Assembly: GCF_002886185.1 (NCBI RefSeq)
Contig: NZ_KZ614147.1
Coordinates: forward strand, 1,151,187 to 1,215,186
From: Salipaludibacillus neizhouensis
GTDB taxonomy: Bacteria > Bacillota > Bacilli > Bacillales > Salisediminibacteriaceae
Length of the DNA: 64,000 nt
Direction: 5' to 3'
Both the position numbers and the translations under genes were made by a program. Below are positions 8,388 through 29,994 of this stretch, piece by piece (positions within the stretch are counted from its first letter, which is position 1; each line of letters starts with the position of its first letter). The notes under the pieces are model-generated. The model searched no databases, was not told the origin of the DNA, and saw only the letters and a program-made list of their open reading frames with translations.

Positions 8388-8493
8388 CAGCTAACTTTAC
8401 GCCACGCGTGTAAAGGGAAAACCACCCTTGACACTTAAATGATGGTGGCGAAAGATAACGCTGTATTTAACAAAAGACGCTTTGCGTTTTTCT
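8388..8493 (+). repeat. Family A structured repeat with terminator, copy A1 (before gdh)
   Basis: First of five ~105-bp copies. Outer arms CAGC...GCTG and CGCCAC...GTGGCG enclose an inner stem GTGTAAAGG/CCTTGACAC (one mismatch), then TATTTAACAAAAGACGC and a GACGC...GCGTTTTT terminator hairpin. It ends ~27 bp before the gdh start, where a leader attenuator would sit. Confidence 0.8.
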
Positions 8494-8520
8494 TAAAAAA
8501 ATATAAGGAGTGGTGCATGC

Positions 8521-9930
8521 ATGTCTTTAGTACAAACACAACGGACGATTGGGCAGGTAATGAATGAATTAAAGGAGGATGTAACTTTTCTTCCAAAGAT
8601 GACGGCGGAAGCTCGGGAAAATGCCTTTGAGTCTGGTAAAGAGATTTTGACTACGACCGACAAGGTGATTAAAAGTTACATACGGGTGTCGAAAGATGAT
8701 GGAAGAATTGTTCGGATTCCCGCCTATCGAATTCAGCACAATGATATCGCTGGTTTTTATAAAGGGGGGATCAGGTACAGTGAGCTAGTAAATGAAGAGG
8801 AAGTTGAAAATCTCGCTGTGCTGATGACGTTGAAAAACGCGCTACATGAACTTCCGTACGGAGGGGCGAAAGGCGGAGTTGTCGTTAATCCAAGTGATTA
8901 CTCTGAGAGAGAGTTAAATTTGATATCGAAAAAATATGTGCAAAGATTTGCTCCGGATATTGGACCGACACATGACATTCCTGCGCCTGATATGGGGACG
9001 AACGAACAAGTGATGGACTGGATGGTCGGCGAGTACAAAACGATTCATCCAGGCGAAAACTACATGGGTGCTTTTACAGGGAAAAGCATTGAAAACGGCG
9101 GAGCTCAAGGTCGGAGAGAAGCAACGGGTAAAGGAACCTATTACAGTTACACTTGGCTCGTGAATGAGTGGGCGAGAAAACAACCGGATGACTTTTTGCA
9201 TGATGGAAAAAACATCCACAAACTTCAGTTTGAGAAATTGAAAAACTTGTATACAAAGAGTGATCGTGGCGAGAAAATTTCGATTGCGATTCAGGGGTTT
9301 GGTAATGTTGGTTCCGTTGCTGCATTGGAGGCGTATAAGGATAAGAAGTTGCATCATAACGTCATTTCGGTCAGTGATCACCAGGTGACGCTGTTTAATA
9401 CAGATGGACTGGAAATCGTGAATTTAGTTTCCTATCAAGAAGAAAATGGTCACCTTCCAAGAACAAAAGAAGCATTGGAGAGTGTTGGTGTAAAAGCAGC
9501 AATATTAGAGAGAGATGCGATCTTGACGATGGAAATGGATGTGCTTGTTTTAGCCGCGATCGAGGATCAAATCATGGAAGGAAACATGAAAGAAATAAAG
9601 GCTGATATTTTGGTTGAGGGAGCCAATGCCCCGATCAATGTAGCTGCGGATACTCATCTTCATCAAAAAGGAAAAGTGGTTATTCCTGATATTTTGGCAA
9701 ACGCTGGTGGTGTGACAGTATCTTACCTCGAGTGGAAGCAGGATAGAATTACCCAATTATATACAAAAGAAGAAGCTTTAGATGAGATGTATCAGCACAT
9801 GGCAGCGAGTTGTGAAAAAGTATTCTCCTCGTACTTTTATCGAGAACTGGAAGGCATTCGGAAAACATGTTATCTCCATGCCGCCAAAAGATTGTTCAGC
9901 TTGCTTTACAAACACGGGAAGTTGTTTTAA
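8521..9930 (+). CDS. Glutamate dehydrogenase (Glu/Leu/Phe/Val dehydrogenase family)
   Basis: Interconverts glutamate and 2-oxoglutarate plus ammonium with NAD(P)(H), in the cytosol. The substrate domain holds GGIRYS and PYGGAKGGV, whose Lys is catalytic; the dinucleotide domain holds IQGFGNVGSVAA near residue 260, and the NAGGVTVSYLEW motif is present. At 469 residues it is ~40 longer than RocG/GudB-type enzymes; the extra stretch lies around residues 215-250 between the two domains (ARKQPDDFLHDGKNIHKLQ and after). ATG 8521 has AAGGAG ~10 nt upstream. The gene is monocistronic and preceded by a family A element and an inverted repeat. Cofactor preference cannot be read here, and the extra segment makes the isoenzyme class uncertain. 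Confidence 0.9.
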   Translation: MSLVQTQRTIGQVMNELKEDVTFLPKMTAEARENAFESGKEILTTTDKVIKSYIRVSKDDGRIVRIPAYRIQHNDIAGFYKGGIRYSELVNEEEVENLAVLMTLKNALHELPYGGAKGGVVVNPSDYSERELNLISKKYVQRFAPDIGPTHDIPAPDMGTNEQVMDWMVGEYKTIHPGENYMGAFTGKSIENGGAQGRREATGKGTYYSYTWLVNEWARKQPDDFLHDGKNIHKLQFEKLKNLYTKSDRGEKISIAIQGFGNVGSVAALEAYKDKKLHHNVISVSDHQVTLFNTDGLEIVNLVSYQEENGHLPRTKEALESVGVKAAILERDAILTMEMDVLVLAAIEDQIMEGNMKEIKADILVEGANAPINVAADTHLHQKGKVVIPDILANAGGVTVSYLEWKQDRITQLYTKEEALDEMYQHMAASCEKVFSSYFYRELEGIRKTCYLHAAKRLFSLLYKHGKLF

Positions 9931-9940
9931 TCGACGGTGG

Positions 9941-9996
9941 CTTCCAAATAATGGGGGGGGCTAATGGGGGGGCAGACCCGCAAATATTTTCCATAT
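9941..9996. repeat. REP palindrome, copy 3 (imperfect double)
   Basis: CTTCCAAATAATGGGG, a run of eight G, then ATGGGGGGGCAGACCCGC. The right flank (CAAATATTTTCCATAT) matches the copy at 10981. Confidence 0.65.
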
Positions 9997-10077
9997 CCGC
10001 AGTGCGTTTCAGTGGAATTCTCGTTTTTCGGAAGGTAGTATGAAAATGAGATAAGAATTACGAAAGGATGATGAAAA

Positions 10078-10642
10078 ATGGCTTATGATATCGTGGTAAT
10101 TGGAGCAGGACCTGCTGGAGCTAGTGCGGCACTTTTTGCTGCTAAGACTAGGAAGAAAAACGTTGGTCATTGATAGTGATCAAAGTATTACTAAAAAAGC
10201 ATGGGTTAAAAATCACTATGGGGTAAGTGAGATTACAGGACCCGATCTTGTGGAAACAGGATTAAACCAGGTGAAAAGTGTTGGCGGAGAAGTGGTCAAG
10301 GATAAAGTTTCTAACCTTTCCGGTGAGAAAGGCAACGTTAAGATAGAAACAGAAAATGGCAGCTATGAAGCGAACCATGTTATTTTGGCAACGGGAATGA
10401 TTGTTGAATTAGCAGAAGCATCAGGCATTAATACAAAAGACGGAACGGAGCCACGAGTGAAGAAAGTGGTTAAAGTTGATGAGCAAGGAAAAACAAACGT
10501 GAGCGGCATATGGGCAGCTGGAACATGTGCTGGTCAAAGTGTCCACACGATCATCACGGCTGGGCATGGAGCCTCGGTTGCAATCAATGTGATAAGTGAA
10601 ATCAATGGAGAACGTTATGTAGATCACGACATTTTAAAATAA
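10078..10642 (+). pseudogene. FAD/NAD(P)-dependent oxidoreductase (thioredoxin-reductase-like), frameshifted
   Basis: Small flavoprotein of the thioredoxin-reductase superfamily without the redox CxxC. The ATG at 10078, with AAGGATG upstream, starts MAYDIVVIGAGPAGASAALFAAK, a complete FAD-binding Rossmann start. The frame then fails near 10142-10150; the protein continues one frame over as LGRKTLVIDSDQS and runs to a normal end with GIWAAGTCAGQSVHTIITAGHGASVAIN. One extra base at AAG-A-CTAGGA, or loss of two, explains it. The joined product would be ~188 residues, a normal size for this subgroup. It could be a recent pseudogene or a sequencing error, since everything downstream is well kept. 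Confidence 0.8.
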
Positions 10643-10659
10643 TAGTCTTTATCAAATTT

Positions 10660-10709
10660 AAACAAGCGAAAGCCGAATCGTTTATCCGGCTTTCGCTTGT
10701 TTTTTTATT
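10660..10709. terminator. Strong intrinsic terminator
   Basis: AACAAGCGAAAGCCG and CGGCTTTCGCTTGTT pair perfectly around a short loop and are followed by TTTTTTATTT; ~20 bp after the oxidoreductase stop. Confidence 0.9.
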
Positions 10710-11083
10710 TGGGTTAGAAGTATTTTGGGCTAAGAGAGTATGACGGTTGTGATACTTAATGATAAAGGCGACTCTGGGAAAAGGGTGTGGGGTGTGAGTG
10801 TCGCTATAGGAATAAGATAGTGCCACCCAGAAGAAGCGTATAGTGTGAATGTAGGCATACGGGTCTAATAGTGACGCTCGGAGCACGAAGGAAAAATGAA
10901 AGTCGCTATATGCAACTAATAGTGCCTTCCAAAAGAAATATTCAGTACGACTGTCGCCAATCATCCCTTGTTGGGAATTTATGGGGGGACAGACCCGCAA
11001 AAATTTTCCATATTAGGGGTATTTATGACACTTTTTCTGTATAATTAAGTGTGTCGGGTGGTGTGAGGAAGGGGGAATAGGGG
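10710..11083. other. Intergenic stretch with degenerate short repeats and REP copy 4
   Basis: No credible gene. Short motifs such as ATAGTG(C/A)C and GTCGCTATA recur several times between 10780 and 10965, suggesting a decayed repeat. REP copy 4 (ATGGGGGGACAGACCCGC, ~10981-10998) follows, with the same right flank as copy 3. A TATAAT-like box near 11040 may be the promoter of the next operon. Confidence 0.5.
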
Positions 11084-11764
11084 ATGCTTCGGTTGTTTAG
11101 AACTGTTAAACATTATTTTGCCAAGGGTGTAGATCTAGAAAAGCAAGAAGACCAAGATCCGGTATCAATTGCCGATGAATTGTTAAAGGACATGGATCGA
11201 GAGTTATCTCACATGCGAGAATCGCTGAATAAACAGATTGCGAGTGAAAAACGGTTGAAACGAAGAGTGGAAGAAGCTTATCTGGAGGTTGGTCAAAGAG
11301 AAGCAGATGCGCTTGAGTTTTCACAACAGGATGATGAAAACTCTGCAAAGCTTGCGTTGTTAAAAAAAGAAGAGCTACGGCACCATGCAGCTGAAATGGA
11401 GACGTTATTAACCCAAACTCAAATACATAAAAAGGAGCTCCTTCAGCACATGGATGTGCAAACCGCGAATTATCATCGATTACAGGAAAAAAAGCTTCAT
11501 TTACAAACGAAGCGGAACCAACTGCGGCCTCCAACCGTACATGAAGTAGAGGAACTAAAAGTGCACGAGAAAAGAGTTTCTTCTTTATCCGTTCATCCAC
11601 ACATTGAAAATCCTGAGCAAGAAATGCCACTAAACTCAGGTGATGAACTGCCTGAGAGTCCGACACCGATTAATAGAGCTACTGGAAAACATGGTGTTAC
11701 TAATGTGGAAGAACGGTTAGAAGAACTTAAGAAATCACTCAAGCAAAAGGAATTAGGTGAGTAG
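11084..11764 (+). CDS. PspA/IM30-family protein
   Basis: 226-residue, mostly helical protein of the phage-shock/ESCRT-III-like PspA family, acting at the inner face of the membrane. MLRLFRTVKHYFAKGVD is the amphipathic N-terminal helix, DPVSIADELLKDMDREL the conserved start of the coiled coil, and long Glu/Lys/Gln-rich coiled coil runs to about residue 145; the last ~70 residues are a variable acidic tail. It is the first gene of an operon with a YuaF-like NfeD protein and a flotillin, starting 1 bp before the second gene. In B. subtilis yuaF-floT lack a pspA partner, but other bacteria link PspA-like, NfeD and flotillin functions in membrane stress. Confidence 0.85.
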   Translation: MLRLFRTVKHYFAKGVDLEKQEDQDPVSIADELLKDMDRELSHMRESLNKQIASEKRLKRRVEEAYLEVGQREADALEFSQQDDENSAKLALLKKEELRHHAAEMETLLTQTQIHKKELLQHMDVQTANYHRLQEKKLHLQTKRNQLRPPTVHEVEELKVHEKRVSSLSVHPHIENPEQEMPLNSGDELPESPTPINRATGKHGVTNVEERLEELKKSLKQKELGE

Positions 11765-11765
11765 T

Positions 11766-12296
11766 ATGGAGGTATTTGGTTTCCCGATCGAAACACTGTA
11801 TTTATATGCACTTATTTTAGGTGTGATCCTAACGGTTCTCTTTCTGTTCGTGGGAGACCTACTCGAAGGTCTGTTCAATATTTCAGGCGATGGGGTGATA
11901 AACCCGATTACGTTAATAGGTTATATTACTTTATTTGGTGGACTAGGGTACGTGTTGGAGACGGTGACATTCATGAACAGTGGTACGATCATTGTGATAA
12001 ATGCAGTCATATCGCTTATTGTTATCGTGCTCGTCAATTTTTTCATTGTTATTCCCGTGAAGCGGTCGGAAAAAAATATTTCATACTCTGTTCAAGAATT
12101 GAAAGGAACTATAGGTGAAGTATATACAACCATTCCGATTGATGGGTTTGGAGAAATTGTCATTCCGAGAACGCATGGAACGATGAGTAAGCCGGCAAAA
12201 AGCTTCGATGGCGATCATTTGCCTGAAGGAACAAAAATTCTTGTCATTGATATTGATGACGAAGGTGTGTTTCTCGTTTCCAAGCATTATGAATGA
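11766..12296 (+). CDS. yuaF: NfeD-family membrane protein, YuaF-like
   Basis: Partner of flotillin in lipid-domain maintenance. The 176-residue product has about three membrane helices (residues ~8-30, 45-65, 73-97) and a C-terminal cytosolic OB-fold NfeD domain containing LKGTIGEVYTTIPIDGFGEIVI. ATG 11766 is taken because AGGTGAG lies 5 nt before it; GTG 11757 is possible. It sits immediately after the PspA-like gene and 126 bp before floT, the yuaF-floT order of B. subtilis, where the pair is under the envelope-stress factor sigma-W. No clear sigma-W promoter was found here. Confidence 0.88.
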   Translation: MEVFGFPIETLYLYALILGVILTVLFLFVGDLLEGLFNISGDGVINPITLIGYITLFGGLGYVLETVTFMNSGTIIVINAVISLIVIVLVNFFIVIPVKRSEKNISYSVQELKGTIGEVYTTIPIDGFGEIVIPRTHGTMSKPAKSFDGDHLPEGTKILVIDIDDEGVFLVSKHYE

Positions 12297-12422
12297 AGTG
12301 AAATTGAGGGAAGAAACGATGTATCTAGTTTTATAAAAAAAAAGTGAAATTCGGTTCAAACTCGGGCATTTTTAGAAAAAAGGAAAGCGTGGACTATTAT
12401 GAGATAAAAAGGGGATGGATGT

Positions 12423-14009
12423 ATGGAGTTTTTAAGTTCTGCAGTTATTATTGGTATTGTTGTTGCATTTGTATTTCTCGTATTAATAGGTGTTTACTTT
12501 ACCCGATACCAAACTTCCGGGCCGAACGAAGCCTTGCTTGTTACTGGTAGCTATTTAGGAAAAGGTAAAAATATTTCCGATGATTCCGATGGGAAAAAGA
12601 TGAAAATTTTGCGTGGGGGCGGGGCCTTTGTCGTACCGGTTTTCCAGCAATATGCAAAATTCAGTTTAGCAAACTATAGCTTAAACATTGTTACGACAGG
12701 TGCTTATACAGAGCAAGGGGTACCGGTTTCTGTTGATGGTGTGGCGATTATCAAAGTCGGATCTACGATGGAAGAGATTGCAACAGCGGCAGAACAATAC
12801 TTAGGTAAATCTACAGAAGAATTTGAAGAAGAAGTCCAAGATGTGCTTCGAGGCCATTTACGTTCTATTCTTGGTTCGATGAGTGTAGAAGATATTAATA
12901 ATAATCGGGAGCGTTTTAACCAAGAAGTGCAATCGGTAGCATCTCGCGACTTTAATAAAATGGGGTTGGAAATCAAGTCATTTACGCTTCAGGAAGTAAC
13001 AGATACAGAAGGCTATTTAGACTCACTTGGTAAACCGCGAATTGCTGAAGTGAAGCGAAATGCCGCAGTAGCAGAAGCGGAACGAAAGAAAGAAGCGCGA
13101 ATAGAGAACGCACGAGCTGAACAAGAAGCGAAGGCACAGGAATTAGTGCGTGATACGGAAATTGCGAATTCTGAGAAAGAAAAGCAATTAAAGATTGCGA
13201 TCTATAACCGTGAACAGGATCAAGCCAAAGCAGAAGCGGATCAGGCGTATGACTTACAGACAGCCAAATCCAAACAACAAGTTACGGAAGAAGAAATGCA
13301 AATTCGCATCATTGAACGAGATAAGCAAATTGAATTGGAAGAGCGTGAGATTAAGCGTCGTGAGAAACAGTATGACGCTGAAGTTCGTAAAAAAGCGGAT
13401 GCCGATCGTTATGAGCAGGAACAAAAAGCGGAAGCGAATAAAGTCCAGCAAATGCGTGCCGCGGAAGCATCTCAGTATCAAATTGAAGCAGAGGCCAGAG
13501 CTCAAGCGGACGCTGAACGTTTACGCGGGGAAGCCGATGCTAGTGTTATTCGCAACCGTGGTGAAGCGGAAGCAATGGTTATTCTTAAAAAAGGTGAAGC
13601 CGAAGCAGAAGCGAAGAAAATGCTTGCAGAGGCATTCGATAAATACGGCGATGCAGCGAAACTCAGCATGATTCTTGAAATGCTGCCAGCTTACGCGCGA
13701 GAAATTGCTGCACCTCTTAGTGCGATTGATAGTGTGACCGTTGTTGATACTGGTGGAAGCAGTAAAGATGGTGGAGGTGGAGCCGGAAAAATGTCCAGTT
13801 ATGTGACAGATTTGATGGCAACACTACCGGAGAACCTTAAGGCAGCATCAGGGATTGACGTCCAAGATTTATTAGAGAATTTCTCTGGAAAAGGAAATGT
13901 AAAACAAAGCATGGATGAATTAACAGAGCAACTATCGGCTCAAAACCAAAGTGGGGAAGCATCTGCAAATTCGGAAGTTACGAACACAGATACACCTAGT
14001 AATTCTTAA
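12423..14009 (+). CDS. floT: Flotillin
   Basis: Scaffold of functional membrane microdomains that influences membrane fluidity, secretion and signalling. The 528-residue product has an N-terminal membrane hairpin/helix (SSAVIIGIVVAFVFLVLIGVY), an SPFH/Band-7 domain (about 30-200), then long Glu/Ala-rich coiled coil (about 210-400) with the flotillin repeats AEAERKKEARIE and GEAEAMVILKKGEAEAEA, and a Ser/Asn-rich tail. It is similar in size to B. subtilis FloT (~509). ATG 12423 follows AAGGGGATGG. It is the last gene of the pspA-like/yuaF/floT operon and has its own terminator; yuaI does not follow. Confidence 0.94.
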   Translation: MEFLSSAVIIGIVVAFVFLVLIGVYFTRYQTSGPNEALLVTGSYLGKGKNISDDSDGKKMKILRGGGAFVVPVFQQYAKFSLANYSLNIVTTGAYTEQGVPVSVDGVAIIKVGSTMEEIATAAEQYLGKSTEEFEEEVQDVLRGHLRSILGSMSVEDINNNRERFNQEVQSVASRDFNKMGLEIKSFTLQEVTDTEGYLDSLGKPRIAEVKRNAAVAEAERKKEARIENARAEQEAKAQELVRDTEIANSEKEKQLKIAIYNREQDQAKAEADQAYDLQTAKSKQQVTEEEMQIRIIERDKQIELEEREIKRREKQYDAEVRKKADADRYEQEQKAEANKVQQMRAAEASQYQIEAEARAQADAERLRGEADASVIRNRGEAEAMVILKKGEAEAEAKKMLAEAFDKYGDAAKLSMILEMLPAYAREIAAPLSAIDSVTVVDTGGSSKDGGGGAGKMSSYVTDLMATLPENLKAASGIDVQDLLENFSGKGNVKQSMDELTEQLSAQNQSGEASANSEVTNTDTPSNS

Positions 14010-14039
14010 GTTAATGATAGATTAATAGTTTTCTATGAG

Positions 14040-14076
14040 TAAAAGCGACGGAATAAGCTCCGTCGCTTTTATTTTT
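14040..14076 (+). terminator. Intrinsic terminator after floT
   Basis: AAAAGCGACGGA pairs with TCCGTCGCTTTT around a short loop and is followed by ATTTTTG. Confidence 0.9.
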
Positions 14077-14138
14077 GAACAGTTAAGAACTTATAAAATT
14101 CTTTTTGAGAGATTGTTGTATGCTTTTGAACAGAGGTA

Positions 14139-14180
14139 CTCGAATTCGCTCTAGATGCCTGATTTCGGTGGGCAATGCCC
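14139..14180. repeat. Family B repeat fragment
   Basis: ACTCGAATTCGCTCTAGATG followed by TTTCGGTGGGCAATG resembles the left part of the family B palindrome at 984. It abuts the 3' end of the RAYT gene. Confidence 0.5.
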
Positions 14181-14191
14181 CCTTGAAAATG

Positions 14192-14890
14192 TTATTCTAG
14201 TAAAGGAGTTTCTTTTTTGTCATTTTCGGTGTAAAAACTTTCAGCAACGATGAGGTTAGCATTTTCTTCAGAAATTGTCGCTAAACTTTTTTTCGCGGCT
14301 TCCTTTAAATAGTCATCATAAAAATCTGTTAAAAAATCTCGATTCGCATGTTTATCAAGATCTTTTTCCACAAATTCTTTATAGAGAACCACTGAATCTT
14401 CCGAGAAAAACTGGAGAACCTTTGTGGTGGTTAAAAACGAATGATTCGTTTTAGCAAGATAATTTTTATAACTGCTCCAATAATATTTCTCTGGAGAATC
14501 AACGATATTTGCCATATATGGGTTTAAATGAATGTATTTACTGACTTCCAAAAAATAAGTGGTGTTACGAATAAGGAGCGCATGATATCTTCCACTAAAA
14601 ACATGTCCACTAAGGTCGTGACGTTTGTTAAAATAGATAGCATACAGGGAATGTAGTCGTTTCATAATTTTTTTACTATGGTAATCTGTTGTTTCCATTA
14701 GAAGGTGAATGTGATTGGTCATCAGGCAGTATGCATGAATTCTAAACGGGAATTCCTGATGTACTTCTGAGAGGAGAGCGAGATACTTGAGGCGGTCAGC
14801 GTCATCATAAAATATCGCACTTCGACGATTACCTCTACTTGTAATATGATATGTTGCACCTGGGTACCAAATTCTCGGTTTTCTACCCAT
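14192..14890 (-). CDS. REP-associated tyrosine transposase (RAYT, TnpA_REP / Y1 family)
   Basis: Single-copy HUH endonuclease related to IS200/IS605 TnpA; RAYTs bind and cut REP palindromes and are usually kept as host genes. The 232-residue product starts MGRKPRIWYPGATYHITSRGN, has the metal-binding HxH motif in MTNHIHLLME (His60, His62) and the probable nucleophile Tyr119 in SKYIHLNPY. ATG 14890 is taken because the family N-terminus begins there with AAAGG upstream; the longer frame to 14995 adds unrelated residues. There are no IS200-type ends immediately around the gene, but eight GGGGTCAGACCCC-like palindromes flank it at 4.5-24.7 kb, one of them ~230 bp upstream. These are its likely substrates (inference). 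Confidence 0.9.
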   Translation of the reverse strand: MGRKPRIWYPGATYHITSRGNRRSAIFYDDADRLKYLALLSEVHQEFPFRIHAYCLMTNHIHLLMETTDYHSKKIMKRLHSLYAIYFNKRHDLSGHVFSGRYHALLIRNTTYFLEVSKYIHLNPYMANIVDSPEKYYWSSYKNYLAKTNHSFLTTTKVLQFFSEDSVVLYKEFVEKDLDKHANRDFLTDFYDDYLKEAAKKSLATISEENANLIVAESFYTENDKKETPLLE

Positions 14891-15115
14891 ACATATTTCA
14901 CACCTTTCACTTGCTGAAATGGGATAAAGATGGTAAGTCATTTGGAAGTTAATCAAATTAAAAGGAAAGACGAAGGTCAAACTGGGGAAAAACATTTATT
15001 CGGTCGTAAAATAACAAATAAAAACGAATAATAGAGTAATGTCATTGCTCTAAAAGATAGGATTCGACACTAAACTCAAAAATCCTTCTATTTAGTGAAA
15101 ATAAATAAAAGGAAA

Positions 15116-15142
15116 ATAATGGGGGGGGCTGCCCCCCCAGAA
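15116..15142. repeat. REP palindrome, copy 5
   Basis: ATAATGGGGGGGG-CTG-CCCCCCC: a perfect G/C palindrome variant of the family, between the RAYT gene and the AEC transporter, ~15 bp before the latter's ribosome-binding site. Confidence 0.65.
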
Positions 15143-15158
15143 ATTAGGAAGCGATGAT

Positions 15159-16055: not shown

Positions 16056-16077
16056 GTTTTGAGTCATTTGTAAAAAA

Positions 16078-16112
16078 AATGGGGGGTCTGACCCCAAAAA
16101 TGGACCCCAAAA
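16078..16112. repeat. REP palindrome, copy 6
   Basis: ATGGGGGGTCTGACCCCAAA, i.e. GGGGTCTGACCCC, followed by a partial direct repeat TGGACCCCAAAAATG. It lies between the AEC transporter and the ComEA-like gene. Confidence 0.75.
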
Positions 16113-16136
16113 ATGAAACGGATTGGAGGGGAAGGC

Positions 16137-16562: not shown

Positions 16563-16595
16563 TAGATTGTTTGATAGTGACTCGTTTAGTACATA

Positions 16596-16641
16596 AAAAG
16601 ACGTCTCATTTTTCCTTAGCGAAGGAATGAGACGTCTTTTT
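16596..16641. terminator. Bidirectional intrinsic terminator
   Basis: AAAAGACGTCTCATT and AATGAGACGTCTTTTT are perfect inverted repeats around a ~17-nt loop, with T or A runs at each end. Confidence 0.9.
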
Positions 16642-16682
16642 GGATAGATAAGAATTTATAAAATTAGCACCTACAAAAGTAG

Positions 16683-16905
16683 CACATCGAAAACGAGAGC
16701 ATAGGCGAAAAAATCCGAGAGACTCCTGTGGAAGAGCACGCTATATTTAATAAAAGACGCTACACGTTTTTCTTAGAAGTGGTTGCTCGAATTTGCTCTA
16801 GGACGGACGCTTTCCGCAGGGTAAATGCTTCAGCCTTCGCTAGAAAAAAGTTTTCCACTAGCAGTTGCCTTCCTGCAGGAGTCTGCGTCTTCGTTTTCAT
16901 GCTTG
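16683..16905. repeat. Composite repeat: family B pieces around a solo family A tail
   Basis: CCGAGAGACTCCTGTGGAAG (family B right half) runs into GCTATATTTAATAAAAGACG plus CTACACGTTTTTCTTAG (family A tail, 16740-16776), then GCTCGAATTTGCTCTAGGAC and GGACGCTTTCCGCAGGG (family B left half). This looks like one repeat nested in another. No gene is supported; the forward ORFs here follow the repeat. Confidence 0.6.
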
Positions 16906-16918
16906 TTGTTTGTTCATG

Positions 16919-20053: not shown

Positions 20054-20067
20054 TTTTATTTTTCATC

Positions 20068-20103: not shown

Positions 20104-20125
20104 TTTCAAGTAAACAAGGATAGAA

Positions 20126-20166: not shown

Positions 20167-20332
20167 GGATCCTAAAAGAGGCCTTGAAAGAAAAAGAACC
20201 TGAAAAAGTCGTCGAATCATAAGAGGTTTGCACAGTATATGAAGATAAGCGTAGACAATGGGACCTGTCAGTTGGTAGTATAAGTATAATGCTTCAAATA
20301 TGACAGATGTCATTTTTAACAAGACAAGTTGA

Positions 20333-20440
20333 CAGCTATCTTTACGCCACATGCATCAAGGGAAGTTCGCTCTTGATGCTCAAATGATATTGGCTTTAAA
20401 GATCACGCTGTATTTAATAAAAGACGGCTTTGCCGTTTTT
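20333..20440 (+). repeat. Family A structured repeat with terminator, copy A2 (before degV-like gene)
   Basis: CAGC...GCTG outer arms; TATCTTTA pairs with TAAAGATCA; inner stem GCATCAAG/CTTGATGC, a compensated change from the GTGTCAAGG/CCTTGACAC of copy A4. The tail TATTTAATAAAAGACGGC runs into GACGGCTTTGCCGTTTTT, a terminator hairpin. It ends ~40 bp before the next start codon. Confidence 0.8.
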
Positions 20441-20480
20441 ATTAATGAAATTTAGAAAAGAGAGAAGTGAGAAAACCTAG

Positions 20481-21335: not shown

Positions 21336-21369
21336 AAGTTTTGTGTTTTAATTAGAACTTACTAGGGAA

Positions 21370-21435: not shown

Positions 21436-21578
21436 CTATTTTTCCGAGATTCATTCTTCTTTTAAAAAATAATTTTACAGATATCTTTAAAGAAGTATAC
21501 TAAAACTATAAATGACCAAATGTTTATCTTCATCGCTATTCCCCCACCCCTTACAATCCCATAAAGGAGGCGCATCCC

Positions 21579-23156: not shown

Positions 23157-23178
23157 CGAGAGTGAGGCGTTAACTAAG

Positions 23179-23964: not shown

Positions 23965-24044
23965 CGAAATATGTCGATATATAAGAAAAGTGAAAACTGG
24001 CTTGGTCATCGACGTAAGAGCTGGAGTAAAGAGGAGTGATTAGA

Positions 24045-24479
24045 ATGGCGGAATTGGTCAATTGTCCAAACTGCGGAAAGCTTTATGTGAAGGCATTACG
24101 CTCGGTTTGTGATGTGTGTGCACGAGAAGTGGAAAACAAGTTTGATATCGTTTATAAATTTATTCGCAGACGAGAGAATAGAAAAGCAACATTAGACGAA
24201 GTGGTTGAGGGGACAGAGGTCGAAAAAGATATGATTGTTCGATTTATCCGCGAAGGACGACTTCATGTCTCACAATTTCCTAATCTAGGGTATCCATGTG
24301 CAAAATGTGGAAAAAACATCAATGATGGTAAACTTTGCGGGGATTGTACGGACGGATTTAGTCGTGATCTTGAAGCAGGAGATCGACAAAAAGCGTATGA
24401 GAAAAGAAAAGAGGATCGGGAAAAGGCGAAGTATCAAACCTACTCATCCATGAACGACCGCTTAAACCGTAATCGATAA
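24045..24479 (+). CDS. yvyF: Flagellar operon protein YvyF
   Basis: 144-residue protein of the YvyF (TIGR03826) family, found at the head of the flgM operon in bacilli; role unclear. It carries two zinc-ribbon-like knots, CPNCGKLY...CDVC near the N-terminus and CAKCGKNINDGKLCGDC near residue 92, with a helix-turn-helix-like middle (ATLDEVVEGTEVEKDMIVRFIREGRL). ATG 24045 is chosen over GTG 24036, which falls inside the GAGGAGTG ribosome-binding site. Unlike in B. subtilis, a terminator and a family A element separate it from flgM. Confidence 0.9.
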   Translation: MAELVNCPNCGKLYVKALRSVCDVCAREVENKFDIVYKFIRRRENRKATLDEVVEGTEVEKDMIVRFIREGRLHVSQFPNLGYPCAKCGKNINDGKLCGDCTDGFSRDLEAGDRQKAYEKRKEDREKAKYQTYSSMNDRLNRNR

Positions 24480-24488
24480 AATTATAAG

Positions 24489-24520
24489 TAAAAGCGTTCA
24501 TAAATATGGACGCTTTTTTA
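24489..24520 (+). terminator. Intrinsic terminator after yvyF
   Basis: AAAAGCGTTCAT...ATGGACGCTTTTTT; perfect 6-bp core plus G-T pairs, T-run. Confidence 0.85.
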
Positions 24521-24541
24521 GATGGTAATTTATAAAATTAG

Positions 24542-24650
24542 CAGCTACCTTCACGCCGCGCGTATCAAGGGAAACCCATCCTTGATACTTAAAAGATGGC
24601 GGCGGAAGCTGACGCTGTATTTAACAAAAGACGGCTCTGCCGTTTTTCTT
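24542..24650 (+). repeat. Family A structured repeat with terminator, copy A3 (before flgM)
   Basis: CAGCTACCTTCACGCCGC leads to an inner stem GTATCAAGG/CCTTGATAC, then GGCGGAAGCTGACGCTG, TATTTAACAAAAGACGGC and a GACGGCTCTGCCGTTTTT terminator. The inner stem again keeps pairing with changed bases. Unlike A1, A2 and A4 it lies 230 bp before the next gene and upstream of the sigma-D promoter. Confidence 0.8.
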
Positions 24651-24658
24651 TTGGGGAA

Positions 24659-24682
24659 AAATGGCGGGTCTGACCCCTTTTA
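24659..24682. repeat. REP palindrome, copy 8
   Basis: AAATGGCGGGTCTGACCCCTTTT: last copy of the family in the window, with one G-to-C change in the left arm. Confidence 0.65.
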
Positions 24683-24744
24683 AAAGGAAATGAGTGTTTT
24701 TGTGGTAAAATAGACTATTCTTAAATGTTTTTTTGACTGAATAG

Positions 24745-24771
24745 TAAAGATTGGCGGGGAATAACCGATAT
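24745..24771 (+). promoter_or_regulatory. Sigma-D promoter of the flgM operon
   Basis: TAAA (24745-24748), exactly 15 nt, ACCGATAT (24764-24771), against the sigma-D consensus TAAA-N15-GCCGATAT. It is ~110 bp before flgM, where B. subtilis also has a sigma-D promoter. It makes flgM, the sigma-D antagonist, autoregulated. Confidence 0.85.
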
Positions 24772-24882
24772 AGTTAGTAGAGGTTATAAAAGGTGTAAGT
24801 GGTGGTGACTTCGGTTAGTGCTGTATACCTTACCATAGGAGAATACCATATTCATTAATAGGATTGAAGGAGGTGCGTAACC

Positions 24883-25140
24883 ATGAAAATAAATCCGATG
24901 CATTCCGTAAAAGCGTATCAGAAGAGTCAAGAAGTCCAAGAGCGCCAAAAAAAGGACCATGTAAAAAAGCAGGATCAAGTGGAAATTTCACCTGAAGCAA
25001 AAAAACTAGCTAATACACCTGGAATTTCTGCGGATCGAATGGAACGCGTACAAGAGGTAAAAGAGCAAGTTAACAATGGCACGTATAAAGTGAACCCTGA
25101 AGAGGTAGCAAAGAAGCTTTATGATTTTTGGAATAAATAA
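24883..25140 (+). CDS. flgM: Anti-sigma-D factor FlgM
   Basis: 85-residue inhibitor of the flagellar sigma factor sigma-D, holding back late genes such as hag until the hook is complete. The start MKINPMHSVKAYQ, the middle DQVEISPEAKKLA and the C-terminal sigma-binding helices (RMERVQEVKEQVNNGTYKVN then VAKKLYDFW) are typical. GGAGGTG stands before the ATG. It heads the flgM-flgN pair and carries a sigma-D promoter upstream. Confidence 0.95.
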   Translation: MKINPMHSVKAYQKSQEVQERQKKDHVKKQDQVEISPEAKKLANTPGISADRMERVQEVKEQVNNGTYKVNPEEVAKKLYDFWNK

Positions 25141-25160
25141 ACAGAAGTGAGGTGTTTGAC

Positions 25161-25661
25161 ATGGTGCAGGAGCTTATCCAAATTTTCCAGGCAATGACGG
25201 TTGTTCATGAACGTTTTAATGAGCAGGCTTTTAAAAAAGAGGAAGTCATTAAAAAAGGGGATATGGCTGGTCTTGACCAAGTCTTAAAGGGTGAGTCCGC
25301 ATTAATTCAGCACCTCCGAAAGCTTGAGAATACGCGACAACATCTTATTCAGCAATGGATGGATGAAAAGGGACTGGTGAAAGAGAACGTAACGATGGAT
25401 CAACTACTTCCTCTCTTACCTGAAAAAGAGCGGGAGGATTTGAGTAATTGGCAAAACCGATTAGTCATTGAGATTCAAAAACTTAAAGAGCAAAATGAAT
25501 TGAATCGCCAAATGTTAGAGGACTCGTTGCGCTTTGTGAACCTTTCCCTTGATGCCATGCATCCGCAGAATCAATTCTCCAGTTATTCTGGTACTGGGGA
25601 AAATGAAGATGAGGATGATTTTGATCCGGGTAAACGATCGTTGTTTGATTCAAAAGTATAA
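25161..25661 (+). CDS. flgN: Flagellar hook-associated chaperone FlgN
   Basis: 166-residue helical chaperone (FlgN family, YvyG in B. subtilis) for the hook-filament junction proteins FlgK and FlgL. The body is a long coiled coil with FKKEEVIKKGDMAGLDQVLKGE near residue 25-45 and a C-terminal NRQMLEDSLRFVNLSLDAM segment that carries the substrate-binding helix in the family. ATG 25161 has GAGGTG 7 nt upstream; GTG 25152 lies in that site. It follows flgM by 20 bp. Two terminator-like structures lie between it and flgK, its client. Confidence 0.88.
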   Translation: MVQELIQIFQAMTVVHERFNEQAFKKEEVIKKGDMAGLDQVLKGESALIQHLRKLENTRQHLIQQWMDEKGLVKENVTMDQLLPLLPEKEREDLSNWQNRLVIEIQKLKEQNELNRQMLEDSLRFVNLSLDAMHPQNQFSSYSGTGENEDEDDFDPGKRSLFDSKV

Positions 25662-25668
25662 AATAAGA

Positions 25669-25692
25669 AAAATCCGCAAAGCGGTTTTTCTT
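25669..25692 (+). terminator. Terminator-like hairpin after flgN
   Basis: AAATCCGC-AAA-GCGGTTTTTC; short but followed by a T-run. Together with element A4 it puts two tandem terminators inside what is one operon in B. subtilis. Confidence 0.7.
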
Positions 25693-25707
25693 ATCAAGAC
25701 AATATGA

Positions 25708-25812
25708 CAGCTACCTTTACGCCACGCGTGTCAAGGGAAACCTGCCTTGACACTTAAATGAGGGTGGCGAAAGCTAACGCTGTATTTACTAAAAGACGCT
25801 ACGCGTTTTTAA
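25708..25812 (+). repeat. Family A structured repeat with terminator, copy A4 (before flgK)
   Basis: The cleanest copy. CAGCTACCTTTACGCCAC pairs with GTGGCGAAAGCTAACGCTG (CGCCAC/GTGGCG, CTTT/AAAG, CAGC/GCTG); the inner stem GTGTCAAGG/CCTTGACAC is perfect. TATTTACTAAAAGACGC and GACGCTACGCGTTTTT form the terminator, ending 16 nt before the flgK ATG and close to its ribosome-binding site. Confidence 0.85.
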
Positions 25813-25827
25813 TAGGGAGAGAATAGG

Positions 25828-27414
25828 ATGCTTTCGACATTTCATGGATTAGAAACTGCTCGCCGTGCTTTGAGCATGCATCAATCAGCATTAAATACAA
25901 CGGGACATAATATTGCAAATGCAAATACACCAGGCTATTCCAGACAGCGTGTGAACTTCACACAAACGGAAGCCTTTCCGAAACCCGCGTTTAACAAGCC
26001 GGGAATTCCTGGACAGTTGGGGACAGGTGTAAAAGCGGGAGAAATTCAACGCGTTCGTGAAGAGTTTTTGGATCAGCAATTTCGCGGGGAAAACAATAAA
26101 CATGGTTATTGGGAAACTCGGCAAAAGTCTCTCGAAAAAATGGAAGATGTAATGAATGAATTGTCTGGAAACGGTATTTCAAACGTCATGGATGAATTTT
26201 GGAAATCGATGCAGGATCTTGCTGCCAACCCGGAAGATGCCGGTGCTCGTTCCGTTGTTCGTCAATCGGGAATAGCTGTAGCAGATACGTTTAACTATAC
26301 GTATGAATCATTGGAAGCTATCCAACGTGATTACGGAAAACAAATCGGCATAGAGCAAAATCAAATTAATTCAACGCTGAATCAAATAAATGAATTAAAC
26401 AAACAGATTGCTTCTGTGGAACCTCATGGGTATTTACCGAATGATTTATACGATAAGCGGGATGTGCTCGTTGATGAGCTGTCTCAATTTGTAAATATTA
26501 GTGTGGACCGAGTTCCAAGCGGTGGTCAGGCAAAAGCAATGGCTGACGGGAAGTACACAATTTCATTATTAGACCGAAATGGACAAGATACTGGAATTAC
26601 GTTAGTAGATAGCGAAACAGCGGAATATAACCAGATAGAGGTGCAATTTGCTGACGGAGAAGGTGAATCTGGTCTTGTAACAGGAATTACTTTTACAAAT
26701 GATAACACGACAATTCCATTTTCTGACTTCGATTCTTCAGGTTCTCTCAAGGCAATGGTCGAAGGATTTGGTTATGAAGATGCAAATGGTGGTCAAGCTG
26801 GTATTTATCCTGAGATGATGCGTGACTTGGATCAGATGGTTGCCACATTTGCTGAGGCCTTTAATGAACAGCATCGAGAGGGCATCAGTCTTTCTGAGAT
26901 ACAGGGTGACCTTGGAGTCGGTTTTGAAGGATTTGACTTCTTTGCCTACTCAGATGATTATAACGGTGACGTTCAAGGAGCGGCAAAATATTTAAAAGTT
27001 TCAGACGAGATTTTGGCTAGCAGAAACAACATCGCTGCAGCGAAGAATGTTGGTGAGAACGGGGAACGCGTAGGTTTTGCTGGAGATGGTGGAAACGCAT
27101 TAAACTTAGCAGATGTAAAAGAAGCCTCTCTTAATTTTGGTGGGGACTTGACGAATGTAAACAGTTTCTTTCAAGGAGTGATCGGTGAGATGGCTGTTTC
27201 AACGAAAGAAGCTGGCAGATTAACGGATAACTCGGCTTCTTTACGAGACTCTGTTCATGCAAATCGCCAATCAGTAAGTAGTGTATCGCTAGATGAAGAA
27301 ATGACGAATATGATTCAGTTTCAACATGCGTACAATGCAGCAGCTCGAAATATAACCATGGTTGATGAGATGCTAGATCGCATCATTAACGGAATGGGCG
27401 TCGGCGGTCGATAA
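25828..27414 (+). CDS. flgK: Flagellar hook-associated protein 1, FlgK
   Basis: First hook-filament junction protein, exported by the flagellar type III system. The 528-residue product has the conserved N-terminal rod/hook signature LSTFHGLETARRALSMHQSA followed by NIANANTPGYSRQRV, a variable middle, and the C-terminal axial helix SVSLDEEMTNMIQFQHAYNAAAR...MLDRIINGMG. Lengths of 500-550 are normal. It starts 16 nt after family A copy A4, so attenuation at that element would act directly on flgK-flgL-yviE. flgL follows after 22 bp. Confidence 0.96.
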   Translation: MLSTFHGLETARRALSMHQSALNTTGHNIANANTPGYSRQRVNFTQTEAFPKPAFNKPGIPGQLGTGVKAGEIQRVREEFLDQQFRGENNKHGYWETRQKSLEKMEDVMNELSGNGISNVMDEFWKSMQDLAANPEDAGARSVVRQSGIAVADTFNYTYESLEAIQRDYGKQIGIEQNQINSTLNQINELNKQIASVEPHGYLPNDLYDKRDVLVDELSQFVNISVDRVPSGGQAKAMADGKYTISLLDRNGQDTGITLVDSETAEYNQIEVQFADGEGESGLVTGITFTNDNTTIPFSDFDSSGSLKAMVEGFGYEDANGGQAGIYPEMMRDLDQMVATFAEAFNEQHREGISLSEIQGDLGVGFEGFDFFAYSDDYNGDVQGAAKYLKVSDEILASRNNIAAAKNVGENGERVGFAGDGGNALNLADVKEASLNFGGDLTNVNSFFQGVIGEMAVSTKEAGRLTDNSASLRDSVHANRQSVSSVSLDEEMTNMIQFQHAYNAAARNITMVDEMLDRIINGMGVGGR

Positions 27415-27436
27415 TAATATAAAGTAGGTGAAAGAG

Positions 27437-28324
27437 ATGCGTGTGACACAATCAATGATGGCCAATAGCTCTCTGCGACATTTAGGAAATAGCTTTGAAA
27501 ATTTGAAAAACTATTCCGATCAATTATCGACAGGGAAGAAAATATCGCGGCCTTCACAGGACCCTGTAGTAGCTATGAATGGTATGCGATACCGTACGCA
27601 AGTTGCTGAAACGGAACAGTTTAAGCGCAACTTATCGGAAGCGTATAACTGGATGGACACAGCGGATTCAACGCTTGGTCAGTCAACTGATGCCCTTCAA
27701 CGAGTTCGAGAACTAACGGTTCAGGCGTCAAATGATTCCTATGAGGAAACGCAACGGGCAAATATTGCTAAAGAAGTAACACAGCTTCGTGAACACTTGG
27801 AATCAATGGCAAATACTCGCTCGAATAATAAATATATCTTTAATGGAACAGATACTACGAATCCTCCCGTCAGTGTTGATGATGCGGGGACCTATACTGT
27901 CTCTGATAACGAACAAAATGTAGAAATTGAGCTCTTAAAGGGTGTAAAAGTACCAGTTAATATCCGACCGCAAAACGTTTATTCAGAAGAACTATTTCAG
28001 GATATCCAAGAGCTGGAGAATGCTTTGAACGACGAGAACACAACGGCAGAGGACTTAACAGCGATGCTTGATGTTCTTGACGTGCATATAAACAACACGG
28101 TCAATGAAAGAGCAGAACTTGGTGCCCGTATGAACCGAGTCGAGATGATAGACTCTAGACTTCAGGAACAAGAAGTGATTGCAAAACGGATGATGTCTGA
28201 TAATGAAGATGCTGAAATTGAGCAAGTCATTACAAAATTGTTGGCGCAGGAGAATGTACACCGAGCAGCACTTTCTTCCACTTCGAAAATTATCCAACCT
28301 TCGCTTATGGATTTCTTGAGGTAA
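27437..28324 (+). CDS. flgL: Flagellar hook-associated protein 3, FlgL
   Basis: Second junction protein, joining FlgK to the flagellin filament. The 295-residue, flagellin-like protein begins MRVTQSMMANSSLRHLGNSF with ISRPSQDPV near residue 42, and ends with the coiled-coil ISKLLAQENVHRAALSSTSKIIQPSLMDFL-type helix. ATG 27437 has AGGTGAAAG upstream; the frame opens slightly earlier at 27428 inside that site. Confidence 0.95.
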   Translation: MRVTQSMMANSSLRHLGNSFENLKNYSDQLSTGKKISRPSQDPVVAMNGMRYRTQVAETEQFKRNLSEAYNWMDTADSTLGQSTDALQRVRELTVQASNDSYEETQRANIAKEVTQLREHLESMANTRSNNKYIFNGTDTTNPPVSVDDAGTYTVSDNEQNVEIELLKGVKVPVNIRPQNVYSEELFQDIQELENALNDENTTAEDLTAMLDVLDVHINNTVNERAELGARMNRVEMIDSRLQEQEVIAKRMMSDNEDAEIEQVITKLLAQENVHRAALSSTSKIIQPSLMDFLR

Positions 28325-28348
28325 TTTAGAAGGAAGGGGGCTTCTTGC

Positions 28349-28930
28349 ATGGATCTTGCACGTGTTCAAATTCAGACACAAGATGCCGTTACTGGTATGC
28401 AACAGCAACGCCCTTTTCTTTCGATAAGGCAGCGTCCAGCTGATATGACAATCGATCAAGAATTAGGGAGCACTCTAAGTATTAGTACGAATGCTTCTAA
28501 GCTTTTCATTGACCAAACGGAAGCTTTCGCTGATGCAAATTTGAAAAGCATTTTTAGAAGGAATGAGGAATTTGTTGCTAAAGCGCAACAAACTGCTTCT
28601 CAATACGTGGCAAAAACAGCTCAGCAAGGTGAAATGTTGAAAAAGATTGAAAATGGCACAAATGCGATTCCGCAAATTGCTCAACAAAACGGAACACGAG
28701 AACCGAAGCAATACAATCTTGCCATGGTACCAGAGCATATGGGGAAGGTTAAGATCGACTTTCAACCTGCAGAGGTAAGTATTCAATCAAATTGGCAAAA
28801 ACCAAGTATTCATGTCCGAAAAAATGAACCGGAGATTACCGTCCCACGTTGGGAAACAAACATCTACCTTCAGCAAAAAAACTCCATTCAATTTGATGTC
28901 ATTGGTGGATCGGTGAATAGACAACTTTAA
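28349..28930 (+). CDS. yviE: YviE-family protein (DUF6470)
   Basis: 193-residue protein of unknown function that lies between flgL and fliW in bacilli; position and the ARVQIQTQDAV start with ISIRQRPADMTIDQ-like text match B. subtilis YviE. It is rich in Gln and Lys, has no signal peptide or membrane helix, and the C-terminal half (LAMVPEHMGKVKIDFQPAEVSIQ) looks beta-rich. GGAAGGGGG precedes the ATG. Translation probably follows flgL on the same mRNA, and a terminator stands behind it, splitting it from fliW. Confidence 0.85.
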   Translation: MDLARVQIQTQDAVTGMQQQRPFLSIRQRPADMTIDQELGSTLSISTNASKLFIDQTEAFADANLKSIFRRNEEFVAKAQQTASQYVAKTAQQGEMLKKIENGTNAIPQIAQQNGTREPKQYNLAMVPEHMGKVKIDFQPAEVSIQSNWQKPSIHVRKNEPEITVPRWETNIYLQQKNSIQFDVIGGSVNRQL

Positions 28931-28953
28931 ATGAAAATTTATTCACTTTCTAT

Positions 28954-28994
28954 AAAAACCTGTCGAGTGCTTTAGTAACTCACAGGTTTTTTTA
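28954..28994 (+). terminator. Intrinsic terminator after yviE
   Basis: AAAACCTGT...ACAGGTTTTTTT with an inner GAGT/ACTC pairing. Confidence 0.85.
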
Positions 28995-29140
28995 TGTTAT
29001 AAAAGGACTTATGTAGGGAAGAGAAAGATATACACTTTATTTAAACGAACAGAGAGAGGTTAATTTACACGATTTTTTATATTTCCCAAGACAAATTCGA
29101 CAGGAATCGATATACTATAACTAAGTGAGGAGTGATTTAA

Positions 29141-29593
29141 TTGAATATCAAAACCAAGTATTCAGGTGATGCCGAGATCAAAGAAGAAAATATTATAAAT
29201 TTTGAACAAGGGATCCCAAGTTTTGAAACGGAGAAGGAATTTATCCTACTTCCTTTCAGTGAAGAACCGAGTGCCTTTTATATTTTACAATCGATACATA
29301 CAGCGGGATTAGCTTTAGTTGTGATGACACCGTTTTCATTTTTTCCTGACTATACGGCGAAGCTTTCGGATCAGACGATTGAAGCCCTTCAGATAGAAAA
29401 AGAAGAGGATGTTGCCTTGTTTGTTGTCCTGACGCTGCGAGACACGTTGGAAACATCGACAGCAAATTTGCGAGGACCTATCGTCATTAATAGTGCTGTT
29501 CAACAAGGGAAACAAATCGTATTAAATGAATCAGATTACCATACGAAGCACAACCTGAAAGCATTGGAAGCTTCGGGAAAAAAGGAGGGCTAG
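29141..29593 (+). CDS. fliW: Flagellar assembly factor FliW
   Basis: 150-residue beta-barrel protein that binds flagellin or CsrA. When flagellin is low, FliW frees to bind and block CsrA, so hag mRNA is translated. The family core DAEIKEENIINFEQGIPSFETEKEFILLP is at the N-terminus and LRGPIVINSAVQQGKQIVL near residue 120. TTG 29141 is the start, with GAGGAGTG upstream; no ATG is available at this place. csrA starts 3 bp after its stop, the usual coupling. Confidence 0.95.
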   Translation: MNIKTKYSGDAEIKEENIINFEQGIPSFETEKEFILLPFSEEPSAFYILQSIHTAGLALVVMTPFSFFPDYTAKLSDQTIEALQIEKEEDVALFVVLTLRDTLETSTANLRGPIVINSAVQQGKQIVLNESDYHTKHNLKALEASGKKEG

Positions 29594-29596
29594 GAG

Positions 29597-29827
29597 ATGC
29601 TTGTTCTCACTAGAAAGCTTAATGAATCAATTAAGATTGGTGATGATGTTGAGGTTACCGTAATTGGGATAGAAGGAGATCAAGTAAAGCTTGGGATAAA
29701 TGCACCGAGAAATATTGATATCCATCGAAAAGAAATCTACCTCGCCATCCAGGAAGAAAACACTGCAGCAGCTGCCGGCTCTCTAGATGTTTTAAAACAG
29801 TTACAAACATTCACGAAACCAAAGTAA
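29597..29827 (+). CDS. csrA: Carbon storage/translational regulator CsrA
   Basis: 76-residue RNA-binding dimer that represses hag translation by covering its ribosome-binding site. [24 protein letters not shown] is the diagnostic N-terminus, [26 protein letters not shown] carries the RNA-binding Arg and the allosteric FliW contact region. AAAGGAGG stands 8 nt before the ATG. A likely target hairpin is visible in the hag leader at 31584-31600. Confidence 0.97.
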
Positions 29828-29884
29828 CTGCACGTTTCGTTGTTCTATTTAGTGGGAAATTTTTTAAGAGATAGTATAAAATGA

Positions 29885-29994
29885 CAGCTATCTTTACGCC
29901 ACACGCATCAAGAGAAGTTCGCCCTTGATGCTTAAGTGATGGTGGCTTTAAAGATGACGCTGTATTTAATAAAAGACGGCTATGCCGTTTTTCT
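29885..29994 (+). repeat. Family A structured repeat with terminator, copy A5 (after csrA)
   Basis: CAGCTATCTTTACGCCAC, inner stem GCATCAAG/CTTGATGC, GGTGGCTTTAAAGATGACG, TATTTAATAAAAGACGGC and terminator GACGGCTATGCCGTTTTT. It may serve as the csrA terminator, or as a leader of the regulator gene 170 bp downstream. Confidence 0.8.

Follow-up and report, generated by a model that had tools for sequence, protein, structure and literature searches.

A terminator-bearing repeat of Salipaludibacillus neizhouensis, present in about 240 copies, that probably moves as single-stranded DNA

The window analysed here is a 64-kb stretch of Salipaludibacillus neizhouensis DNA (contig C2, positions 1151187-1215186, of the 5.51-Mb genome designated G000), which carries copies of a structured repeat of about 130 bp. 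We conclude that this element is probably non-autonomous, transposase-less mobile DNA, mobilized in single-stranded form on the template of the lagging strand in the manner of the palindrome-associated transposable elements (PATEs) derived from IS200/IS605 transposons, and carrying its own intrinsic terminator. The first-pass annotation had preferred a mobile terminator repeat to a regulatory leader RNA, and that preference is borne out by the copy number of about 240, by the lack of any match in the seven congeneric genomes searched and by empty sites whose ends are exact to the base.

Allowing up to two mismatches, the tail pattern of the element occurs at 239 places in the genome and its left-arm pattern at 234, and the reversed control patterns occur at none, which gives the estimate of about 240 copies. 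All 150 candidates scored in this genome passed covariance model R1, built from 39 copies, and BLAST with copy A2 of the window returned at least 44 matches (best 40 of 301 candidates scored). Model R2 gave only two weak matches in a spot check of four 20-kb stretches, so the copies are spread unevenly. The 174 sampled copies that have a left arm divide into 93 short ones and 81 whose inner hairpin is longer, and a few copies differ inside between a common leader and tail; copies were picked for sampling by model rank and tail matches, and the sample is thus not random.

The best-defined copy is 131 bp long. In order, the element consists of a left tip NNNG[AG]TAAG, a leader (about AATTTATAAGTTG), an imperfect hairpin of about 80 nt, a linker, a terminator hairpin, and a right tip TTTTTCTTA. 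The large hairpin is built of nested stems P1 (ACAGC/GCTGT), P2 (ATCTTT/AAAGAT), P3 (GCCAC/GTGGC) and P4 (10-12 bp), with an A-rich internal loop (about CTTAAATGATG) on its 3' side ahead of the linker and terminator, so that palindromes lie close to both ends of the element. The right boundary is sharp, with C, T, T and A conserved at 88, 94, 92 and 89% in 171 copies and the next base at background; on the left, a T run followed by the leader is seen in the 100 copies whose leader is clear. The 6 bases TTCTTA at the right tip have their complement, TAAGAA, near the left tip, and no longer inverted repeat is present at the element tips. Some copies are 5'-shortened. The left ends at C1:2992360 (L269) and C1:258816 (L273) give way to unrelated sequence partway through the inner stem, as in cut or interrupted copies.

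For 155 copies the two flanks were joined and searched against the available sequence, and among 31 junction-spanning matches, most of which were the query's own neighbourhood, three clear empty sites with base-exact ends were found (^ marks the empty junction and / the element boundaries). At site 1, C1:1341407 on the minus strand, a 131-bp insert is seen relative to a paralogous stretch near C1:1330600 (TTTTTTCTTA^TAATATG); the filled site reads AACTCCTTTTTTCTTA/CAAGATAAG...GCGTTTTTCTTA/TAATATGTC and the paralogous stretch CCCCTTTTTTCTTATAATATGTCC. Site 2, C2:660543 on the minus strand, lies within a second repeat, B (empty TCTTTGTCC^GAGGAGGCTG; filled TCTTTGTCC/GAGGGTAAG...CTTA/GAGGAGGCTG). 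Site 3, C1:103249 on the plus strand, lies at the end of a B copy (empty TTTGTTC^AAAAAAGAAAG; filled TTTTGTTC/GCAGATAAG...CTTG/AAAAAAGAAAG), and further copies at C1:2216385 and C1:3543707 are located within about a base of the same position in B. The three left tips align base for base if read without a target duplication. These three sites show intact insertion on the 3' side of T-rich sequence and require no target duplication.

Repeat B (CTCGAATCCGCTCTAGGCGGACGCTTTCCGCGGGCAATGCTTCAGC and on) is itself dispersed and palindrome-rich, and was met at 16 places in the sample; in the window it lies at about 1024-1161 and, by eye, at 16785-16895. Some B copies have the leader and T-run position of the element, and B is possibly moved by the same enzyme. 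The copy at C1:2844495 on the minus strand, whose comparison shows 68% identity to B, may provide a fourth empty site.

The sequence CTTA is found at the right end of 72 of 89 scorable copies and on the left flank of just 15 of the 89, indicating that it is not a target duplicate and belongs to the element. A T run (at least 6 of 7 bases) before the leader is present in 80 of 137 copies (58%) where the upstream gene is sense and in 19 of 37 (51%) where it is antisense, as compared with 104 of 730 (14%, sense) and 116 of 950 (12%, antisense) control 24-mers; copies without a clear leader or tail were left out of the T-run and end counts. Terminators were first favoured as the target, since a hairpin plus T run within 55 bp accompanies 47 of the 93 copies whose upstream gene is sense and 47 of 594 random intergenic 63-mers. 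This target was dropped because only 3 of 28 copies with an antisense upstream gene have a hairpin plus T run, and gene 3' ends generally have one in 41 of 82 cases; the T run holds in sense and antisense classes alike and is thus the better target. The tail hairpin of locus L079 was considered as a copied host terminator and rejected, the upstream hairpin belonging to a tandem copy. Where copies face an opposite-strand gene, the CTTA end often coincides with the stop codon TAA of that gene, the median distance from copy end to facing stop codon being 5 bp in convergent gaps and -2 bp in antisense tandem gaps.

Once 9 of 202 tails (more than two mismatches, no left arm) had been dropped, only 3 of the remaining 193 copies overlapped a called gene by more than 70 bp. 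Unique gaps that hold a copy are tandem in 121 cases, convergent in 43 and divergent in 13, and control gaps of at least 60 bp without a copy are tandem in 100, convergent in 23 and divergent in 45; divergent gaps, where promoters lie, are therefore depleted (convergent versus divergent, Fisher p 2e-6). For the orientation counts, copies lacking a called neighbour were left out, as was any second copy in the same gap. On contig C1, with one copy per gap, 111 of 128 are oriented with replication, the replichore switch being set at 1.88 Mb, where gene strand and GC skew change sign (about 1.8-2.0 Mb). Between tandem genes on the leading strand, 70 copies are sense and 5 antisense, and between tandem genes on the lagging strand the ratio is 3:11 (Fisher p 3.6e-8), so orientation is set by the fork, or by something tied to the fork, and not by gene direction. 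Convergent and divergent gaps of C1 agree, at 30:9 with replication (p 0.001). In two other genomes, 53 of 56 copies listed (G084) and 50 of 53 listed (G045) fit two replichores, counted on the best 56 of 135 and 53 of 99 matches with switch points chosen from the same data.

The covariance-model search proposed in the first-pass annotation was carried out and found the family well beyond the genus. Model R3, applied to 150 scored candidates per genome, passed none in each of the 7 congeneric genomes and 99 in G045, 113 in G010, 125 in G017, 56 in G050, 97 in G075, 135 in G084 and 96 in G028; these seven genomes represent three of the order's families and five genera other than Salipaludibacillus. 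G008 gave 2 passes of 150. R1 found matches in 6 of 35 family genomes, its own included, and none in the 7 congeners; a scan of 249 genomes of the order with R2, scoring 13 candidates in each, added two further families; and R3 in 121 class genomes (29 candidates scored each) matched its own genome alone. Negatives of these wide scans are weak given the few candidates scored per genome, the 13-candidate scan having missed G017 with its 125 passes at depth. Among the deep-tested genomes, copies appear to be either numerous or all but absent, the pattern of a mobile element. At the places corresponding to two window copies, A3 and A4, no copy is present in the 7 congeners; the intergenic DNA is not alignable there, which makes this a record of absence only and not a strain-level empty site. 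BLAST in 40 relatives detected only the own genome, as expected because the copies have diverged. Searches of plasmids, phages and viral contigs with A5 as query and with the exact arm pattern gave no match. A lone exact-tail match in Providencia, from a contig collection that may omit close relatives, was taken as chance. The paired copies of G008 were examined as a possible autonomous element and rejected; they adjoin duplicated genes, cold-shock-like by eye, and no transposase was seen.

The hairpins are maintained by paired changes. Predicted folds of window copies A1-A5 beat shuffles (z -2.8 to -5.1), and 39 own-genome copies show both-sided changes in 6 of 23 RNAalifold pairs. The compensatory changes that the first-pass annotation saw in five copies were confirmed in 28 sequences from two genera (G000, G045), which contain 52 double-change cells as compared with 19.4 in shuffles, a level reached by 0 of 500; in the same set, 7 of 31 pairs are doubly changed (shuffles average 5.1), and neither this count (reached by 29/500 shuffles) nor that of further pair types (500/500) is clearly above shuffles. 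In 27 sequences from 8 genomes (matches at E<=1e-4 from 25 chosen loci, fitted to the structure of R2), 28 of 31 pairs are doubly changed, with 206 cells versus 68.9 in shuffles and a covariation score of 0.599 versus 0.215 shuffled and at most 0.099 in slid versions. Among 797 cells of this cross-genome alignment, G-U pairs number 16 and A-C pairs 18; tRNAs of five of these genomes have 171 G-U of 2530 pairs, drawn by ARAGORN, which draws no A-C pairs, so that G-U alone is comparable. Because G-U is no commoner than A-C, stem conservation is suggestive of selection on DNA hairpins, or of none after insertion, rather than of selection on RNA. Unpaired bases around P4 look similar across families by eye in the 27-sequence alignment (NCG before P4, CTTTAAAA after), which suggests a putative protein-binding site. 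The window contains no Rfam match over the curated threshold, and among 14 loci scanned at E<=5 none rose above the gathering score, a single sub-threshold match grazing the edge of a copy.

The absence of a required duplication, the T-rich target, the hairpins near both ends and the lagging-strand-template orientation together point to a mode of movement like that of IS200/IS605 (general knowledge and the available part of PMC6006769). IS608 and ISDra2 insert into the lagging-strand template and have guide/hairpin ends (same source, in the part available), and the orientation bias of the element is as expected for such insertion, from which we infer the strand used in the act. In our proposal, a single-stranded element would leave and enter the lagging-strand template, with an HUH (Y1) transposase of the IS200/IS605-TnpA kind cutting and joining in trans, and the TAAG motifs, which occur in the leader and again ahead of the tail, might serve as guides for CTTA-like cleavage sites. 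Each copy would deliver a ready-made terminator, mostly into 3' intergenic space, and copies landing just before start codons may lower or reshape expression there. PATEs of Haloquadratum, which derive from IS200/IS605 transposons, are defined as too short for a transposase, without terminal inverted repeats, with palindromes near both ends and without target duplication (PMC3119063, in the part available); the element shares its transposase-free length, lack of terminal inverted repeats, end palindromes, lack of target duplication and many copies with them. It differs from PATEs in its bacterial host, in the intrinsic terminator that forms its right-end hairpin, in a far longer left hairpin kept by covariation across families, and in that no IS605-type parent was found. 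The element works like a PATE but is not filed as one, because no Y1 transposase with shared ends was found in the genome sample read. It offers a natural record, some 240 copies deep, of lagging-strand insertion in Bacillus-like bacteria, and a concrete case in which to ask what mobilizes small repeats lacking a transposase.

Several observations weigh against this reading. No transposase is tied to the element. Y1_Tnp matches occur in 11 of 13 genomes without tracking it, and 5 of 7 element-free congeners have stop-free ones; no copy was found at the 12 Y1 loci examined (R1, E<=1) or in Y1 regions L274-L279 (R2), and no paired ends around a long insert were evident in 95 stretches (442 kb) plus 12 more, a sample of the genome. 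TnpA binds ends of 20-25 nt (size from the part of PMC6006769 available), far shorter than the large hairpin. The target is loose, with the T run in 99 of 174 copies and empty sites ending in CTTA, GTCC and GTTC. Taken by itself, site 1 could reflect precise loss between two CTTA repeats, and site 2 allows a 3-4-bp GAGG duplication. Genes were called with our own codon-scored script rather than taken from annotation, and the 27-sequence alignment leans to the R2 structure, with P2 pairing in only 75.7% of cells. Finally, in 87 own-genome copies raw G-U pairs outnumber A-C pairs, 76 to 35 (P1-P4 only, tail pairs excluded, relatedness of copies unweighted); 54 of the 76 fall in three pairs, each with one widely shared change, and without these pairs the counts are 22 and 30.

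The window itself contains an open reading frame (ORF) of 267 aa on the minus strand (14192-14995) that matches Y1_Tnp (IS200-like/RAYT-type; 53.7 bits, cut-off 23), and from its domain alone this gene is a candidate for the moving enzyme. Its 3' end adjoins an element-like leader (3 mismatches) and half a B repeat at 14077-14190 on the plus strand. This arrangement, the position of the ORF among the copies and the presence of Y1 matches in all 5 genera tested would also suit a REP/REPIN-like element mobilized by a Y1 protein that the host has domesticated (RAYT, TnpA-REP), for example the product of this ORF, and the element resembles REP/REPIN systems in being intergenic, of high copy number and hairpin-bearing, with a proposed HUH-type enzyme (PMC6006769 and PMC3116915, each in the part available). 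We nevertheless regard such an origin as unlikely. In G002 and G003, two genomes in which no element copy was found, Y1 ORFs of comparable length occur some 10 kb away from the flagellar locus; if these are orthologous, the window gene may be old and unconnected with the element. The 12 Y1 loci lack an R1 match. REPs are 21-65 nt long with a GT[AG]G-type guide (PMC6006769, available part), whereas the element is about 130 bp and asymmetric, the consensus P1 foot is preceded by TTG/TTA with no guide of that type, and no RAYT gene is tied to it.

Group II introns use lagging-strand priming and group IIC introns insert beside terminators. The element could be imagined as an RNA-templated, bacterial SINE-like element whose transcript runs to its own terminator and is then reverse transcribed and integrated by a group-II-type reverse transcriptase at T-rich sites of the lagging strand; we judge this quite improbable. 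The terminator at the element end, the lack of a required target duplication and the 5'-shortened copies are in its favour, as are an orientation that fits lagging-strand priming and insertions beside terminators reminiscent of group IIC introns. The equality of G-U and A-C across genomes, set beside the G-U pairs of tRNAs, is against it, as are the nearly equal numbers of left arms and tails and the lack of an above-threshold Rfam match on a copy (promoters and reverse transcriptases were not searched for). Group IIC introns are marked by a GUGYG 5' end, domain V and an AY 3' end; the element has tips NNNG[AG]TAAG and CTTA, and the Rfam scan of the window, with no separate domain V search, gave no match. 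The wider version, an order-wide superfamily of SINE-like retroelements in which a reverse transcriptase copies the folded, self-terminated transcript at T-rich gaps of single-stranded DNA left behind the fork, would account at once for the terminator, for orientation with replication and for the missing target duplication, and has a smaller chance still of being right. Just as doubtful is an ordinary miniature inverted-repeat transposable element moved by a DDE transposase, a class that the size, copy number, missing transposase and TAAGAA/TTCTTA complementarity call to mind; it is disfavoured by the three empty sites, which need no target duplication and at site 3 permit none, by the lack of a tip inverted repeat beyond those six bases and by the orientation tied to replication.

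Within the window, all five copies described in the first-pass annotation are present, its starts corresponding to the CAGC arm, and they score 126.6-142.1 bits with the 39-copy model, of which they form part. Counting the 5' leader, window copies measure about 120-132 bp rather than the 105 bp first reported. The scan added a sixth, variant copy (model match 16644-16778, E 2.4e-7) and no further match at E<=1 on the plus strand; three weak matches on the minus strand overlie A2, A4 and A5 themselves. The tail pattern with at most 3 mismatches matches 6 times in the window and 0 times in 100 shuffles. The features are as follows.

8387-8495, plus strand: copy A1, 141.2 bits, 25 nt before the gdh ATG (8521)
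20320-20444, plus strand: copy A2, 135.2 bits, 36 nt before the degV-like ATG (20481)
24520-24651, plus strand: copy A3, 133.5 bits, no start codon right after
25695-25814, plus strand: copy A4, 126.6 bits, 13 nt before the flgK ATG (25828)
29866-29995, plus strand: copy A5, 142.1 bits, after TTTTTT, downstream of fliW
16644-16775, plus strand: sixth copy, 41.5 bits, leader and tail as in the others, different inside
1310-1333, plus strand: tail-like terminator alone (AAAATAGACGCTACGCGTTTTTCT), 24 bases, without a covariance-model match

The leader of A1 is degenerate, with a TTGAAAAGGTTTTCAA hairpin in its place, and its left tip is therefore undefined; A2 is preceded by TTTTTAA and its leader is shortened to CAAGACAAG. 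A3 adjoins the 3' side of a host hairpin and T run (GGACGCTTTTTT), and A4 lies immediately 3' of a host hairpin and TTTTTCTTAT. One of two supposed solo tails, at 16740, turned out to be the end of the sixth copy. At the other, placed at 1297, a tail-like terminator does exist (1310-1333), possibly a remnant of the element, though its 24 bases are not matched by the model.

Pfam agrees with the first-pass annotation that the genes after A1, A2 and A4 encode Glu dehydrogenase, DegV and FlgK. Those short distances to start codons, together with a covarying structure and terminator, had prompted the idea of a regulatory leader RNA or riboswitch with attenuator. As the function of the family this is refuted, and for these three genes it is the least probable of the readings: for the 120 copies whose downstream gene is sense, the distance to its start is at most 60 bp in 41 and more than 150 bp in 45, so that A1, A2 and A4 stand at the near extreme of a wide range; of 189 placed copies, only 41 are within 60 bp of a sense start; the downstream gene is on the opposite strand in 45 of 128 unique gaps of C1; 11 of 14 copies in lagging-strand pairs are antisense to both genes; and the depletion of divergent gaps, the lack of copies at the A3 and A4 places of the congeners and the lack of a cross-genome G-U excess agree. 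Given a mobile family, the link once drawn between nitrogen metabolism, a DegV protein and flagellar genes is a coincidence of position, and A1, A2 and A4 could still affect gdh, the degV-like gene and flgK. Covarying, terminator-bearing structures before start codons can thus be mobile DNA and not riboswitches, and such families could pass common filters of structured RNA discovery.

The element family was not met in the open-access literature searched, a search that did not extend to the original bcr1 and EFAR papers. EFAR, which is the same repeat as Efa-1, integrates into stem-loop targets. Efa-1 of Enterococcus faecalis is a 163-bp intergenic repeat with two adjacent stem-loops (PMC2267715 and PMC3733652, in the parts available), and the likeness to the element, by description only, lies in these features and in stem-loop insertion; R3 was blank in the 120 other class genomes (29 candidates each), among which Enterococcus is possibly not included. 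The bcr1 repeat of the Bacillus cereus group, also by description, is a mobile repeat of Bacillaceae of similar size (147-167 bp, 11 to 130 copies per strain), linked to TTTAT motifs (PMC6542083 and PMC2267715, in the parts available), whereas the element is linked to a T run and CTTA. Another small repeat family is represented in the window by exact GGGTCTGACCC palindromes at 4528, 16084, 20136 and 24666; with at most one mismatch and on both strands there are 11 matches as compared with 0.19 expected, one of them 14 bp after A3.

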